Shown: positions 8,880 to 62,201 of the stretch, in pieces
Numbering within the stretch: position 1 is the first letter of the stretch
How the letters are laid out: every line of letters begins with the position of its first letter
Source: Sediminibacterium soli
GTDB lineage: Bacteria; Bacteroidota; Bacteroidia; Chitinophagales; Chitinophagaceae
Reading direction: 5' to 3'
Assembly: GCF_009939225.1 (NCBI RefSeq)
Contig: NZ_JAACJR010000006.1
Span: 248,001 to 312,000, forward strand
Length of the DNA stretch: 64,000 nucleotides
Position numbers and translations under genes: made by a program
The notes under the pieces: model-generated
Seen by the model: only the letters and a program-made list of their open reading frames with translations
What the model was told of the DNA's origin: nothing
Database searches by the model: none

Positions 8880-8946
8880 GGGAAGAATTTGGAATTTGAA
8901 ATGGGGGATTGGGAATTGGGAATTTGGGTTGGTGGGTTTGCGGCTC
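8880..8946. repeat. One-armed word repeat at a convergent gene end
   Basis: The 75-bp gap between the vWA and xerD genes is filled with imperfect copies of GGAATTTG / GGGAATT words. I see no inverted partner, unlike the two-armed repeats elsewhere in the window. Not coding in any frame I can support. Confidence 0.5.
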
Positions 8947-19732: not shown

Positions 19733-20746
19733 TTGAAGCTGTACTACCGATCTGTCAGTCTTGCCTTTGAATACCCGTTTACGATCTCCGGCGGCCGCAG
19801 CAAAACGCACCAGCCTTCCCTGGTGGTGGCGCTGCAATTGGGCGACCAGGTGGGTTATGGAGAAGCACCGGCCATTGCGTATTACAATGTAACGGTGGAG
19901 CAACTGATAGAGACGCTGGAATCGAAAAGAACCCTGGTGGAGAAATTTGCCCTGACGGAGCCCGAGCGCTACTGGCATTACCTGCACCATCTTTTTCCCA
20001 ACGATCCCTTCCTGGTATGCGCGCTTGATATGGCCTGCTGGGACCTGTTTGGTAAAATGAAAGGGAAACCGCTGTTCCGGCTCTGGAATACAGCCTGGGA
20101 GAACACACCTGTCACCGACTACACCATCGGAATCGATACCATTGAAAAAATGGTGGCAAAAATGAAAGCCAAACCATGGCCGGTATATAAGATCAAACTG
20201 GGCACGGCCGAAGATATCGGTATCGTGGAAGCCCTGCGCAGACATACCGATGCGGTGCTTCGTGTGGATGCCAACGCCGGCTGGACGGTTGATGAAGCAC
20301 TGGCGAAAATACCCGCGCTTGCTTCCCTGGGCGTTGAATTCATTGAGCAGCCGCTGGCAAAGGACGACTGGGAGGGGATGAAAATCCTGTACGCCCAATC
20401 GCCGCTTCCGTTGTTTGCAGATGAAAGCTGTGTATCGGAAGCAGATGTCAGCAAATGCCAGAACCATTTTCATGGCATCAATATCAAACTCACCAAATGC
20501 AGCGGCATCACACCCGCACAGCGGATGATCAGGGAAGCGCGTGCACTGGATATGCAGGTAATGATGGGCAGTATGAACGAATCCTCCATCGGCTCCGCAG
20601 CCATCGCCAATTTTCTTCCCCAGCTGGATCATGCAGATATGGACGGCCCTTTGCTGCTGTCAGAAGACCTCGCGACAGGCATCTCGTTCCAGGATGGACA
20701 GGTAGGGTTGTCGGGAGCGCCTGGTCTGGGGGTGAGGGTGGTGTGA
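19733..20746 (+). CDS. Dipeptide epimerase (L-Ala-D/L-Glu epimerase type)
   Basis: 337 residues of the enolase superfamily, muconate-lactonizing subgroup. The pair of catalytic lysines is Lys153/Lys155 (YKIKLG) and Lys255 (LTKCSG). Metal ligands are Asp179 (VDANAGW), Glu205 (FIEQPL) and Asp230 (ADESC). The motif MGSMNESSIG near 287 and the C-terminal DMDGPLLL match dipeptide epimerases, which recycle murein peptides such as L-Ala-D-Glu. Exact specificity cannot be read. The start is TTG at 19733 (MKLYYRS), only 63 bp after malQ on the same strand. Followed by a strong hairpin. Confidence 0.9.
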   Translation: MKLYYRSVSLAFEYPFTISGGRSKTHQPSLVVALQLGDQVGYGEAPAIAYYNVTVEQLIETLESKRTLVEKFALTEPERYWHYLHHLFPNDPFLVCALDMACWDLFGKMKGKPLFRLWNTAWENTPVTDYTIGIDTIEKMVAKMKAKPWPVYKIKLGTAEDIGIVEALRRHTDAVLRVDANAGWTVDEALAKIPALASLGVEFIEQPLAKDDWEGMKILYAQSPLPLFADESCVSEADVSKCQNHFHGINIKLTKCSGITPAQRMIREARALDMQVMMGSMNESSIGSAAIANFLPQLDHADMDGPLLLSEDLATGISFQDGQVGLSGAPGLGVRVV

Positions 20747-20770
20747 GAGGTTGCATTGTTATATGGTTAA

Positions 20771-20821
20771 ATGGTTGTATGGCTGCATTGTTTCCAGACA
20801 ACAATTCAGCCATACAACCAT
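20771..20821. repeat. Word-built hairpin, 22-bp arms
   Basis: Arms 20771-20792 and 20800-20821 pair over 22 bp with one mismatch and a 7-nt loop. The arm core is ATGGTTGTATGGCTG, preceded by a half copy (ATGGTTAA). It lies 24 bp after the dipeptide epimerase stop. Similar words are found in the hairpin at 61184-61238. It could fold as a terminator stem but has no T run. Confidence 0.85.
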
Positions 20822-20974
20822 ATAGCCATTTAGTAGCAATACCTTCCCGCCGCCTTCCATCCCCCCACTCGCCGATAACCGATCCCGCCCGCGCAATCAT
20901 TCACAGAACTATAACAGTTGTTAGTATTTCTGGCACCGGCTTTGGATGGTACTGGGTAATAAAAACCATTCTAT

Positions 20975-21526
20975 ATGAAAAATTTATTACTCGCAACGGC
21001 TTTCGCGGTAGGTGCTTCTCTTTATGCAAATCATACGGAAGCACAGCTGCGTGTGAACGTGAACCTGAATATTGGTCGTCCCAGCTGGGGTATCCCGGGC
21101 CAGCAGATGGGTGATTTTTATTACCTGCCCGAGATAGACGCTTATTACGACCTGCAGCGTGCGCAGTTCGTTTATTTCGATAACAGGGGACAATGGATCT
21201 ATGCACAGCAGTTGCCCGGCTATTATAGGAATTATGACCTGGCACGCGGTTACAAGGTATTTATCAACGATCCCTGTCCGTACGCGCATCCTGATAGGTA
21301 CAGGAGAAAATACGCCAGGTATTACAATGGATACGGTTACCAGGGCATGATGAACAACAGGCGAAACAAGTGGGAGGATGACGATGACGACGACCGCGAC
21401 GACCGTTTTAACCGCGGCAGGGGTAACCAGCGATTTGACAACCGACGTTTCGAAGACGGGCGCGATAACGACCGCGACTACGATAACTGGAATGGCGGCG
21501 GTCGCTGGAACGGCAGAAGAGGTTAG
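20975..21526 (+). CDS. Secreted low-complexity protein, unknown
   Basis: 183 residues; I do not recognise the family. A signal peptide covers residues 1-23 (ending THTEA-like, then QLRVNVNLN). The middle (about 35-115) is rich in Tyr and Gly with patterned YYLPEIDAYYDLQRAQFVYF, suggesting a small folded beta domain. From about 128 on it becomes a polar tail of Asp, Arg, Asn and Gly, with a run of six Asp. The tail is likely disordered and highly charged. The gene has its own terminator. It could coat the outer surface or bind cations, but there is no direct evidence. Confidence 0.7.
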   Translation: MKNLLLATAFAVGASLYANHTEAQLRVNVNLNIGRPSWGIPGQQMGDFYYLPEIDAYYDLQRAQFVYFDNRGQWIYAQQLPGYYRNYDLARGYKVFINDPCPYAHPDRYRRKYARYYNGYGYQGMMNNRRNKWEDDDDDDRDDRFNRGRGNQRFDNRRFEDGRDNDRDYDNWNGGGRWNGRRG

Positions 21527-22770: not shown

Positions 22771-22853
22771 AAATCAAAATTCAAAATTTTTTGGCCGCAG
22801 ATTCGCAGATGTCCCATAATCTGCGGATCTGCGGCCATTTTGAATATTGATTT
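22771..22853. repeat. Word-built hairpin between convergent genes
   Basis: Two nested inverted repeats. The inner one, GGCCGCAGATTCGCAGAT (22793-22810), pairs with 22819-22836 at 17 of 18 positions across an 8-nt loop. The outer one, AAATCAAAATTCAAAAT (22771-22787), pairs with 22837-22853 at 16 of 17. Each arm contains a tandem word (GCAGATTCGCAGAT; AAAATTCAAAATT). It ends just before the stop of the small membrane gene. Confidence 0.85.
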
Positions 22854-31606: not shown

Positions 31607-31619
31607 ATTGCCGATTTTA

Positions 31620-31721
31620 GGATTGCCGATTGCCGATTGGGAATTTGATTGAATATTTTTACTGCTTTGCTAACTACAGTTTTTTTAATCCCTCCGATAG
31701 GCAATTGGCAATCGGCAATCC
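31620..31721. repeat. GATTGCC word-built inverted repeat between convergent genes
   Basis: Left arm 31620-31639 (core GATTGCCGATTGCC) pairs with 31702-31721 over 20 bp with one mismatch, with a 62-nt loop. An extra GATTGCC copy lies at 31607-31613. It fills the gap between the DUF3078 gene (plus) and purK (minus). Confidence 0.85.
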
Positions 31722-34263: not shown

Positions 34264-34283
34264 GCCCGAAGGGTGCTGATCAA

Positions 34284-34329
34284 CGGTCAATAACCATAAC
34301 CGCCGGCCAGGGTTATTGACCGTTTTTTT
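34284..34329 (+). terminator. Terminator of the HPPD gene
   Basis: Stem CGGTCAATAACC (34284-34295) pairs with 34311-34322, 12 bp, followed by seven T. Starts 20 bp after the HPPD stop. Confidence 0.92.
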
Positions 34330-42186: not shown

Positions 42187-42262
42187 CGGAGGAACAGATG
42201 AACGGAGGAACAGATGAGCAAGGAACAGGGGAGCAAGGAACGGATGAGCAAGGAACAGAGGA
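42187..42262. repeat. GAACGGAGGAACAGATGA tandem word repeat
   Basis: About five imperfect copies of a 15-16-bp unit (GGAACAGATGAGCAA and variants) in the gap between folC and tonB, both on the minus strand. No inverted partner. It reads in one frame as repeated SKEQGSKER, but there is no gene to hold it. Confidence 0.7.
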
Positions 42263-42273
42263 GGCAGGGGTGT

Positions 42274-55650: not shown

Positions 55651-55706
55651 ATTGCCACAGATTACACAGGTTATTTTCTGTGCCAATCTGTGTAATCTGT
55701 GACAAT
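55651..55706. repeat. CACAGATTACACAG word-built hairpin
   Basis: Arms 55651-55669 and 55688-55706 pair over 19 bp with one mismatch, with an 18-nt loop. The arm repeats the word ACAGATTACACAG. Lies between the amylase and pyrF genes, both on the plus strand, just before the pyrF promoter. Confidence 0.85.
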
Positions 55707-58503: not shown

Positions 58504-58629
58504 GGGTATGTTTGCTGCAATGTAAACAATCTCCGGCTGCAGGCAACCCTTCGCCGAATTTTTGACCGCCGGTTTTCCGTATAACGGTGTTTGCTTTATA
58601 TTCACCCACTTAACACCAAAATAACTGTC

Positions 58630-61161
58630 ATGAGAATTGCCTGTTTATGCTGTTTGTTCTTTGTGATTACCGCAACTGCACAGCATGCGCCTGTTATGAA
58701 AGCCAATTACCAGCAGGCCTCCCGTTTTGCACCGCGTAAACTGGATAAACTGATCTTCAGCACCAGCGTGGATGCGCACTGGCTGAAAAAAAGCGACCGT
58801 TTCTGGTATGTATACGAAACCACCGACGGGAAGAAATGGTATATCGTTGATCCGGCCAAAGGCGAAAAGAAAACACTGTTCGATAATGCCGATCTCGCCG
58901 CCAAGATCACCCGTATTGTGAAAGACCCGTTTGATGCGCAGCACCTGGGCCTGGACAGTATGCGTTTTGTAAAAGATGAGAACTGGATCCAGTTCGAGGT
59001 AAAAAGCACGCAGGAAATAGAGAAAAAAGATTCTGCCGCAGGCAAAAGAACAGGCCCGCCGGTGCGTGAGAGAAAAGTGTTCTATTTCGAGTACAATATC
59101 AATACAGGCGAACTGGTGGAACTGACCGATTTCAAAAAGCCAAAACGCAGACCCGGCTGGGCTTCGATCTCGCCCGACGGCAATACCATCGTATTCGGCC
59201 GCAACAACAACCTGTACTGGATGGATAAGGCCAATTATGAAAAAGCGTTGAAGAACGAAGACGATTCCACCATCGTTGACCGTGCGCTTACCAGGGACGG
59301 CGTTGAGTATTTCAGCTATTTTTCAGAGGGAAATCTTTCGGGCAACGGCGACAATAACGTGGATAAGGAAAAGAACCGGAACAAACGCAAACCGGCATTT
59401 ATTCTCTGGTCGCCCAACTCCAGGCATTTTGCCATGACGCGTGTTGACAACCGCAGGGTAAAAGACCTTTGGGTGATCAACAGCATTTCCGATCCTCGTC
59501 CCACGCTGGAAACCTACAAATACTGGATGCCGGGAGAAAAAGACGCACCTGTTGACCATGTATACCTGTTCGATATAGCAGCAGAGAGCGGTAAAGAGAT
59601 GCAGGTGTCTATGTTCAAAGACCAGAACATCAGTATCTGGGCCGATCCGGGTTTGGCAAATACAAGAGACGATGACTGGCGGCCTGCAAAATGGCTGGGT
59701 AATAACGATAAATTTTATTTCAGTCGCACCGGCCGCGATCTGAAGAAAGTGGATGTGTGCCTGGTGGATATCAAAACCGGCACGGTAAAGCCGCTGATAG
59801 AAGAACGCTTCAATACCTATATTGAAATCAGAAGGGTAGGACTGGTTAATGAGGGAAAGGAAATGATCCACTGGAGCGAGCGCGACGGCTGGGCGCACCT
59901 GTACCTGTACGATGAGAATGGCAGGATGAAGAACCAGATCACTTCCGGCGCATGGCATGTGGAGAACATACTCGGCATCGACGAGGCAAAACGCGTGGTG
60001 TATTTTTCAGGAAATGGCCGCGAACCCGGCGAGGATCCCTATTACCTGCATGCCTATCGCGTAAATTTCGACGGCAGCGGTTTGAAACTCCTGAACCCCG
60101 GCGAATTTGAACACGCCATGAGTGTGAACGATGCCAAAACGTTTTTTGTCGATAACTATTCGCGTGTAAACACCGTTCCGAAATCCGCTTTGTATGCAGC
60201 CGACGGGCGCAGGATCATGGATCTTGAAACCGCGGATCTTTCGTCGCTGTTTGCAACGGGATACAAGTTCCCGCAGCCCTTCAAACTCAAAGCCGATGAC
60301 GGCATCACGGATATCTATGGGGTGGTGTACAAACCGATGGATTTTGATTCAGCCAAAAAATACCCGGTTATCGAATACGTCTATCCCGGTCCGCAGACAG
60401 AGGCCGTGAACAAGGCTTTTGGCAGGGGTATGGACAGGACCGACCGCCTCGCCAACCTCGGTTTTATCGTGGTGACAATGGGCAACCGCGGCGGACATCC
60501 CTCGCGCAGCAAATGGTACCATAATTTTGGTTACGGCAATCTCCGCGATTATGGCCTGGCCGATAAGAAAGCCGTTGCGGAACAACTGGCCGACCGTTAT
60601 TCCTGGTTTGATGTAAGCAGGGTGGGTATTCACGGGCACTCGGGCGGTGGTTTTATGAGCACGGCTGCCATGCTGGTATACCCCGATTTCTTTAAAGCGG
60701 CAGTTTCCTCTTCGGGCAACCACGATAATTCGGTGTATAACCGCTGGTGGAGTGAGCAGCATCATGGGGTAAAGGAAACCATCGGCGACAAAGGCGATAC
60801 CAGTTTTACCTATAATATTGAAAAGAACCAGGACCTGGTAAAGAACCTGAAAGGGCACCTGATGCTCTCCACCGGTGATATCGACAACAACGTGCACCCC
60901 GCCGGAACCATCCGCGTGGCCAATGCACTCATCAGGGCCAACAAGCGTTTTGATTTGGTGATACTGCCCGGACAGCGTCATGGATACGGTGATATGACCG
61001 AATACTTTTTCTGGCGCATGGCCGACTACTTCACCGAACACCTGATGGGAGATACAACCCCCAGACCGGTTGATATGGAACAGATGAACCGCGAGATAGA
61101 ACAGAGCGGTGCAAAAGGCGGCGGAGCTGCAAGAAGAGCGCCGGAGGAGGATGATTACTGA
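58630..61161 (+). CDS. S9 family peptidase (DPP4-like), exported
   Basis: 843 residues from ATG 58630 (MRIACLCC); an in-frame start at 58591 precedes the signal. Signal peptide about 1-18. Beta-propeller from about 60 to 560 and the alpha/beta hydrolase domain from about 580. Catalytic triad Ser671 (GHSGGGF), Asp752 (GDIDNNV) and His784 (GQRHGYG). Similar to dipeptidyl peptidase 4 of the prolyl-oligopeptidase clan. Likely trims peptides in the periplasm. Ends in a word repeat. Confidence 0.93.
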   Translation: MRIACLCCLFFVITATAQHAPVMKANYQQASRFAPRKLDKLIFSTSVDAHWLKKSDRFWYVYETTDGKKWYIVDPAKGEKKTLFDNADLAAKITRIVKDPFDAQHLGLDSMRFVKDENWIQFEVKSTQEIEKKDSAAGKRTGPPVRERKVFYFEYNINTGELVELTDFKKPKRRPGWASISPDGNTIVFGRNNNLYWMDKANYEKALKNEDDSTIVDRALTRDGVEYFSYFSEGNLSGNGDNNVDKEKNRNKRKPAFILWSPNSRHFAMTRVDNRRVKDLWVINSISDPRPTLETYKYWMPGEKDAPVDHVYLFDIAAESGKEMQVSMFKDQNISIWADPGLANTRDDDWRPAKWLGNNDKFYFSRTGRDLKKVDVCLVDIKTGTVKPLIEERFNTYIEIRRVGLVNEGKEMIHWSERDGWAHLYLYDENGRMKNQITSGAWHVENILGIDEAKRVVYFSGNGREPGEDPYYLHAYRVNFDGSGLKLLNPGEFEHAMSVNDAKTFFVDNYSRVNTVPKSALYAADGRRIMDLETADLSSLFATGYKFPQPFKLKADDGITDIYGVVYKPMDFDSAKKYPVIEYVYPGPQTEAVNKAFGRGMDRTDRLANLGFIVVTMGNRGGHPSRSKWYHNFGYGNLRDYGLADKKAVAEQLADRYSWFDVSRVGIHGHSGGGFMSTAAMLVYPDFFKAAVSSSGNHDNSVYNRWWSEQHHGVKETIGDKGDTSFTYNIEKNQDLVKNLKGHLMLSTGDIDNNVHPAGTIRVANALIRANKRFDLVILPGQRHGYGDMTEYFFWRMADYFTEHLMGDTTPRPVDMEQMNREIEQSGAKGGGAARRAPEEDDY

Positions 61162-61183
61162 TTGTTGAATGGCTGTATGATTA

Positions 61184-61238
61184 CATGACTGAATGGTTGA
61201 TTGTTTAAGTCCCCAAAAACAATATAACCATTCAGCCA
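61184..61238. repeat. Word-built inverted repeat between convergent genes
   Basis: CTGAATGGTT (61189-61198) pairs with AACCATTCAG (61226-61235), with weaker pairing on both sides (ATTGTTT / AAAACAAT). The left part (61162-61206) contains the words AATGGCTG, ATGATTAC and GAATGGTTG. The right part resembles the hairpin at 20771-20821 (CCATATAGC). Confidence 0.75.
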
Positions 61239-61253
61239 TATAGCTATTGTCCC

Positions 61254-62201
61254 CTACAGCACCCGCACATTCCCGAAACTGCTCCTGATGCTGATTTTTG
61301 TACCGCCGCCTTTTCCGATGCTGCCGGTGTAATGGTGATTGGGAGAATAGTAAACTGCACGCATATGGCTGTTTTCTGCGCCGGTTTTTGTCTCTTTGAT
61401 TGCGATGTCGTTCTTGCCGCTGGCGCTGGCATTATGGGTGGTGATATCGTAATCGGCCGAGAGGTCTTTGGCGGTAAGCAGGTACATGCTGGTATGATTG
61501 CCGCTGATATTGATCTCCTTCAGCGAATTGTCAATTGGCAGGTCGATGCTGTTGCAGAACTGGAATTCCGCTCTGGCAATACCGGATAGTTTGCTGATGT
61601 CGGCCCTGGAATATTTGAATACCAGCCGGCTGCTGTCGCTCAGGACGCCCGTCACCGCTTTTCCGAATTCAACCTGCAACACCTTCCTGTTGGAGAGATT
61701 ACCGGTGGTGAGTGTGCCGTACCTGCATTGCAGTTCCACCACGCCTTTGTAATCGCCGATGGTCAGCGGGCCAAAGCGGTTTTCTGCATACAGCATGGGC
61801 GTGGAAGGCATATGCACCACCCAGTCGATACGCATTTCATGCCCACCGTTTTCCTCTGTCCAGCCGGTATTGCCATCGCCAAGCGTTGTCCGGAACTGGA
61901 CACTGCCGTCTTTGCTTTCGTCCTGTATGGTTATCCTGTCGAGCATTTTCTGCGCAAACCCTTTGTCCTGTGCGCCAATGAAGATCCGGGCTTCCACTTT
62001 CACTTCGTCCTTATCCCAGGTTTCGATCGCCATCTTCCCGTATTTATTCATCAGCGCCACCATCTGGCTGCCTACGGGGTAGGATTTGCTGTATTCTTTC
62101 TGAAGGTTCACGGCCCATTCTTTTTTCTCCTGGGAGAACAGCTGGGTATTTGCCAGCAGCAACGCGGAAAGCAGGTATGTTTTGAAGCGGATCTGTTTCA
62201 T
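61254..62201 (-). CDS. Exported beta-helix-like protein (DUF4097-like)
   Basis: 315 residues. Signal peptide 1-23 (ending FSQ). The rest (from about 50) reads as many short beta strands of similar length (KVEARIFIG, RFGPLTIGDYKG, RYGTLTTGNLSN, EINISGNHTSMYLL, ITTHNASASGKND), as in DUF4097-like beta-solenoid adhesin proteins. Ends GTKISIRSSFGNVRVL. No enzymatic motifs. Function unknown. Confidence 0.72.
   Translation of the reverse strand: MKQIRFKTYLLSALLLANTQLFSQEKKEWAVNLQKEYSKSYPVGSQMVALMNKYGKMAIETWDKDEVKVEARIFIGAQDKGFAQKMLDRITIQDESKDGSVQFRTTLGDGNTGWTEENGGHEMRIDWVVHMPSTPMLYAENRFGPLTIGDYKGVVELQCRYGTLTTGNLSNRKVLQVEFGKAVTGVLSDSSRLVFKYSRADISKLSGIARAEFQFCNSIDLPIDNSLKEINISGNHTSMYLLTAKDLSADYDITTHNASASGKNDIAIKETKTGAENSHMRAVYYSPNHHYTGSIGKGGGTKISIRSSFGNVRVL

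Follow-up and report, generated by a model that had tools for sequence, protein, structure and literature searches.

Inverted repeats built from tandem degenerate 7-8-nt words and their preference for gene ends in Sediminibacterium soli

Several families of short repeats are known from the intergenic regions of bacteria. Each REP is a copy of a short consensus motif, a link to a RAYT being known in several cases, and a role as barriers at transcript 3' ends is known for REP/BIME elements; the STRR repeats of cyanobacteria are a further group of known repeats. Construction from degenerate words has been described for the P6b stem-loop of the Nostoc trnL(UAA) group I intron, which carries Class I (TDNGATT) or Class II (NNTGAGT) repeats, and in the sections of that study drawn on here its authors suggest that either word class can serve the same role (PMC4476775). 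Direct repeats of the heptamer TAACTGA occur in Beggiatoaceae, Cyanobacteria and Bacteroidetes, according to the passages used from PMC4679880. In the open-access titles, abstracts and selected passages that were covered, hairpins built from words at gene ends are undescribed beyond the relatives cited in this text, and none of the terms looked for occurs in PMC2267715.

The DNA analyzed here is a window of 64,000 nucleotides (the whole stretch under study) from the genome of Sediminibacterium soli, which comprises 3,876,070 bases in 14 contigs. A first-pass annotation of this window had reported a stem between positions 20771-20792 and 20800-20821, with a difference at 1 of 22 positions and a 7-nt loop, and this description proved exactly right. 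The hairpin continues without gaps to arms of 33 nt (20760-20792 and 20800-20832) that are 88% complementary, and it starts 13 nt after the stop codon of the upstream gene. The features of the locus are as follows.

19733-20746, forward strand: gene upstream of the main hairpin, MR_MLE_C / enolase-superfamily protein
20760-20792, forward strand: 5' arm of the main hairpin, tandem 8-nt words NATKGYTR
20793-20799, forward strand: loop of the main hairpin, 7 nt, TCCAGAC
20800-20832, forward strand: 3' arm of the main hairpin, words complementary to the 5' arm
20975-21526, forward strand: gene downstream of the main hairpin, co-directional, no Pfam match

Folded as RNA, the main hairpin reaches −43.9 kcal/mol (z −9.07), and none of 200 dinucleotide shuffles was equally stable. 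Upstream of the gene at 20975, TCTGGCACCGGCTTTGG (window positions 20929-20945) has the shape of a sigma-54 promoter. A similar element, TGGCAT-N5-TTGG, was seen by eye at the same place before the orthologous gene in two other genomes (G010 and G070).

With the Nostoc P6b stem-loop, as presented in the sections drawn on, the word hairpins share tandem degenerate words in which the core is fixed while other letters vary, an opposite arm made of the complementary words, and the likeness that the P6b stem varies in length by whole words. The two differ in that the P6b words are 7 nt long, fall into two classes and occupy a single intron site, whereas the words described here are mostly 8 nt long, belong to several vocabularies and occupy many gene-end sites. 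A search of the 64-kb window against Rfam gave no match above the gathering score, and the main hairpin lies between two protein genes, not in a group I intron. The likeness to REP/BIME/REPIN elements is one of position, as these are intergenic palindromes that are present many times per genome and in some cases close behind stop codons (parts of PMC12306157). Unlike them, the present set has no consensus element, and its words vary in order and number. The word hairpins are probably best read as REP/BIME-like in position and Nostoc trnL P6b-like in construction, while being members of neither group.

The words of the main hairpin had been said to recur about 40 kb away, where a second hairpin belonging to this word family is located.

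58591-61161, forward strand: DPPIV_N + Peptidase_S9 gene on the left side of the second hairpin; start uncertain, gene call from 58696
61161-61247, no strand assigned: second hairpin, made of words of the same family and flanked by convergent gene ends
61254-62201, reverse strand: gene right of the second hairpin, convergent, no Pfam match

This hairpin folds to −32.3 kcal/mol (z −4.75; shuffles as stable, 0 of 200), with about one word (7 nt) of its 5' arm staying unpaired. The exact words that had been named are absent from the 61-kb site: in the window, ATGGTTGTATGGCTG is confined to both arms of the 20-kb hairpin, and CCATATAGCCATT is found at that hairpin only. What the sites do have in common, in register, is the degenerate 8-nt word; in both hairpins the 5' arm is a tandem run of NATKGYTR and the 3' arm is its complement. 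The tested string that is exact at both hairpins is CCATATAGC (positions 20818 and 61236). Positions 20800-20830 and 61218-61248 are 81% identical over 31 nt, a level that chance repeats in the window also reach.

At the level of the genome, the proposal that the word repeats form a family holds and chance is excluded: the two-word pattern ATGGYTGNATGGYTG has 20 exact matches against 0 for the reversed control, and 512 against 43 when up to 2 mismatches are allowed. In contig C11, matches with up to 2 mismatches number 100 in intergenic and 35 in coding sequence (1 and 8, respectively, for the reversed pattern), and the coding excess of this two-word pattern perhaps reflects codon usage. The 68 hit clusters of this contig include 33 single hits in genes, one multi-hit cluster in a gene and two multi-hit clusters in divergent regions. 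Half of the genome holds 74 intergenic ATGG word arrays. A parent element or common boundary, which the first-pass annotation had proposed to look for, was not found among the 134 intergenic hairpin regions of half of the genome, and the comparison of these regions across loci returned 565 weak matches, just 2 of which were of at least 50 nt at 85% identity or more.

The rarity of long matches argues against the view that the words are degenerate small mobile palindromes of the REPIN or MITE type, mobilized by a transposase (RAYT/TnpA_REP or another one) and later rearranged. We regard this origin as unlikely, although the family is dispersed and species-restricted, the genome has a single Y1_Tnp gene (C8:48791-49135), and words are missing from the 250 nt behind the gene orthologous to that of the main hairpin in all 29 relatives compared, 5 of which retain the next gene. 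The coexistence of several vocabularies also speaks against it, as do the GGCGCTTTCAGGCGCC and GGCCTAAAGGCCGCGG palindromes beside the Y1_Tnp gene, which on visual inspection bear no relation to the words. In the region around this RAYT-like gene (L299; region C8:48301-50200), the gene was seen by eye to be flanked by palindromes of the GGCGCTTTCAGGCGCC type and followed by a tandem run of units of about 70-80 nt. As the palindromes in this one 1.9-kb stretch differ from the words, a RAYT origin of the words is unsupported.

The ATGG words are near absent from congeners and constitute a lineage-specific vocabulary: an exact ATGGYTGNATGGYTG match was present in 2 of 36 congeneric genomes, with one match in each. 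Three words in a row were found in 2 of the 296 genomes of a phylum sample, one of them being the window's own, and a genome from another family of the same order (G041) has 37 exact ATGGYTGNATGGYTG matches, many of which lie in perfect tandem arrays. A scan of public genomes yielded at least 119 stretches with three words, and the 80 matches listed come from many Bacteroidota and also from other phyla. Of the 124 arrays in these stretches, 28 have complementary words downstream, none has them upstream and 96 have them on neither side; in the control, 53 of 2380 random 160-nt stretches had complementary words. On several contigs of Bacteroidetes bacterium HyVt-532 (loci L131, L176 and L185, with variants at L178 and L196), ATGG arrays adjoin a similar terminator-like hairpin of the CCGATGG..CCATCGG type, being placed beside it or running outward from it.

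The family is genuine, but ATGG shares this genome with further word families, and the genome in addition to NATKGYTR uses AATTTG.., GGATT.., GATTGCC.. and CACAGATT.. words, with a period of mostly 7-8 nt. Hairpins of other vocabularies are present in the window as well.

22792-22837, no strand assigned: hairpin of GCAGATYC words, at convergent gene ends
55651-55706, no strand assigned: hairpin of CACAGATTA words

In some nested stems, outer AATTTG words enclose inner ATGG words. The period was assessed in the gene-end survey sample, which covers 1.94 Mb of the 3.88-Mb genome, and here 368 of 1144 intergenic regions have a 6-mer that is repeated at 7-9 nt, as compared to 138 after shuffling. 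Lag 7 has 930 and lag 8 has 1166 repeated 6-mers, compared with 208-360 for lags 5, 6 and 9-13, and the arms of the first 1.54 Mb have autocorrelation maxima at 7-8 and at 14-16. In the relative G010, 38 of 188 intergenic regions have a 6-mer repeated at 7-9 nt (19 when shuffled). Two further kinds of repeats were noted in the window, namely a 15-nt direct repeat, AGGAACAGATGAGCA, present three times at 42206-42265 and similar to the GAACA vocabulary, and word repeats of the GATTGGGAATTTGG type at 8892-8940 and 31613-31647, which are absent from the inverted repeats of the window.

The order of the arms is nearly uniform over the vocabularies, and almost always it is the 5' arm that holds the C-poor word. 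Counting array pairs with the core first and its reverse complement second against pairs in the opposite order, we obtained 25 versus 0 for ATGG, 8 versus 0 for AATTTG, 59 versus 0 (period 8) and 26 versus 0 (period 7) for GGATT, 8 versus 0 (period 8) and 1 versus 0 (period 7) for GAACA, 11 versus 0 for GATTG (period 7), and 1 versus 0 for GGAAT (period 8). ACAGA gave 2 versus 2 at period 8, 4 versus 0 at period 9 and 0 versus 0 at period 7, and the other combinations of core and period that were tried gave no pairs. The 5' arm has more G than C in 39 and more C than G in 6 of the 50 word-type inverted repeats, with 5 ties, as compared to a balance of 28 to 25 in the 64 other stems. One conceivable source of such order would be an active word-writing process, enzymatic or tied to replication, that lengthens the stems behind genes in steps of a single 7-8-nt word, copies each step into the opposite arm and keeps the polarity constant. 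Every lineage would in this way acquire vocabularies of its own that are interchangeable in a single structural task at transcript ends; we consider this quite improbable.

Alternatively, the stems could be a neutral and functionless product of DNA-level events, in which slippage at microhomologies and template switching of the nascent strand between the arms create tandem words and palindromes, and only those at gene ends are tolerated. Such an origin would be compatible with the period of 7-8 in several unrelated vocabularies, with the 8-nt offset between the arms in 2 of the 50 word-type stems (where the offset lengths are too few to form a peak), with the long perfect arrays in other bacteria (among the 80 listed of at least 119 loci), and with some arrays that look like products of slippage, in particular those of GAACA, in which 22 of 26 neighbouring period-8 spacers are identical. 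The ATGG arrays themselves are of a different nature. Their neighbouring words agree no more often than words from different loci do, at any of the free positions N (0.314 versus 0.312), R (0.403 versus 0.406), K (0.449 versus 0.534) and Y (0.445 versus 0.489), and recent slippage is therefore unsupported as the maker of these arrays. AATTTG neighbours are even more different than expected (2 of 18 identical, versus an expected fraction of 0.516), those of GGATT at period 8 are identical in 0 of 16 cases (0.151 expected; not significant alone), and those of GATTG at period 7 in 5 of 10 (near the 0.405 expected). Moreover, neither slippage nor template switching predicts a nearly fixed polarity, and the neutral account leaves unexplained why one word is present at so many loci. 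Taken on both sides, we judge a purely neutral product to be rather unlikely. Slippage may nonetheless have a part in shaping the arrays, as perfect arrays would slip and then be lost or grow, runs of identical words perhaps having disappeared in this way, and mixed arrays would persist and fix the register of pairing.

With respect to the genes, ungapped inverted repeats prefer 3' ends. Of the 178 convergent intergenic regions of the survey sample 37 contain one, as do 69 of the 699 co-directional and 7 of the 235 divergent regions (gene ends versus divergent, p = 8e-6). The bias is weaker for word-type repeats (33 co-directional, 13 convergent, 4 divergent; p = 0.02) than for other stems (37, 24 and 3, respectively; p = 0.0004). 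Strictly defined ATGG hairpins, of which 1.54 Mb contains 24, are convergent in 9 and co-directional in 15 cases and never divergent or coding, and the reversed pattern and the opposite order of the arms both gave 0 in the same 1.54 Mb. In co-directional gaps of at least 120 nt, the other stems are closer to the stop codon in 28 of 31 cases and the word-type repeats in 21 of 26, the latter lying at a median of 21.5 nt after the stop codon (versus 90 nt). This placement and the inverted pairing set the word hairpins apart from the TAACTGA repeats, which share with them the character of short, patchily distributed tandem intergenic words that are in several cases missing from the corresponding site of close relatives, but which in the passages of PMC4679880 used here are direct and in the main genome mostly situated shortly before start codons, the arrangement being different in some Bacteroidetes. 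Looser stems of at least 25 bp selected with RNAfold show no depletion in divergent regions (27 of 190, or 14%, against 81 of 586 co-directional, 14%, and 28 of 152 convergent, 18%), and a loose RNAfold-selected set of 32, including a few of other vocabularies, has 3 divergent members (Fisher p = 0.18). Of the two, we prefer the DNA criterion, which allows no gaps and treats both strands alike.

A stable hairpin soon behind a stop codon is also what characterizes intrinsic (Rho-independent) terminators. Unlike these, the main hairpin has long word-built arms with a C-poor 5' arm and no U-tract; such a tract is absent after the 3' feet of both hairpins, at 20832 and 61247. Co-directional stems have TTTT close to their end in 7 of 33 cases for the word type and in 14 of 37 for the others. 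The window does contain a canonical intrinsic terminator at 34282-34324, the last two T of its stem continuing into five more, and ordinary terminators therefore coexist with word hairpins.

Mispairs in the arms were used to distinguish between effects at the RNA and DNA levels. In the orientation of the transcript, word-type co-directional stems have 28 G.U and 11 A.C mispairs (p = 0.0095), which points, weakly because this was one of nine tests without correction, to a role of the word hairpins at the RNA level. By order the mispairs are GT 14, TG 14, AC 6 and CA 5, and the equal numbers of GT and TG speak against simple deamination on the non-template strand. Convergent word-type stems, which are unoriented, have 7 G.U and 7 A.C mispairs, and the other stems have 15 versus 11 when co-directional and 5 versus 11 when convergent. 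In 11 of 32 loci the locus's own 3' arm is the best fit among all 32 (chance 1/32), and word by word, the arms of one locus covary only modestly more than arms taken from different loci (spacer 0.56 versus 0.43).

The arrays could also be binding sites, the 8-nt word being recognized by a protein or an RNA, with the hairpin as a by-product. Protein binding has been proposed by MacGregor for the TAACTGA repeats (passages of PMC4679880), and the division of the word into a core (A, T, G and T, 94-98% constant) and letters N, K, Y and R that vary freely between neighbours would suit a reader of this kind, but the constancy of the core is inflated by the word definition used in detection. Since the arms are palindromic and unrelated vocabularies have a common polarity and intergenic place, we find this explanation very unlikely.

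The turnover of the hairpins was followed at 148 gene ends with orthologs in G010, of which 14 carry a word hairpin here (12 hairpins). In G010, 4 of these 14 ends have no gap, 6 lack a hairpin, 3 have a plain hairpin and the remaining one has a hairpin made of other words. Positional conservation was unsupported in this comparison with G010 alone, because hairpins are about equally common there at the gapped word ends (4 of 10) and at ends that are hairpin-free here (22 of 67). Turnover at orthologous ends thus marks the word hairpins as lineage-specific.

The words, their period, the polarity of the arms, the presence of several vocabularies in this one genome, the near absence of the ATGG vocabulary from congeners and the 3'-end preference of ungapped inverted repeats are direct observations. 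The explanation that we favor, and to which we give about an even chance of being right, is that the main hairpin belongs to a lineage-specific set of transcript-end hairpins with stems made of tandem degenerate 7-8-nt words. Each element would form the end of the transcript of the gene before it, or of both genes where these converge, and would then fold as RNA. The folded hairpin may serve as a 3'-end barrier that blocks exonucleases and/or slows the polymerase, followed by termination. The stems would persist through selection, or through template-switch repair, for pairing rather than for sequence, so that the words could drift.

If this is true, hairpins can be conserved solely as a grammar, consisting of a period of 7-8, a core with free letters and the C-poor arm first, and would as such be missed by homology searches. 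The origin of short words and their spread among loci would then become a testable question. The nearly fixed polarity of the arms over unrelated vocabularies calls for a cause at the level of RNA (folding order, Rho, exonuclease) or of replication. In bacteria, hairpins of this grammar-only kind could, if the reading is correct, stand in for terminators or REPs that are conserved in sequence.
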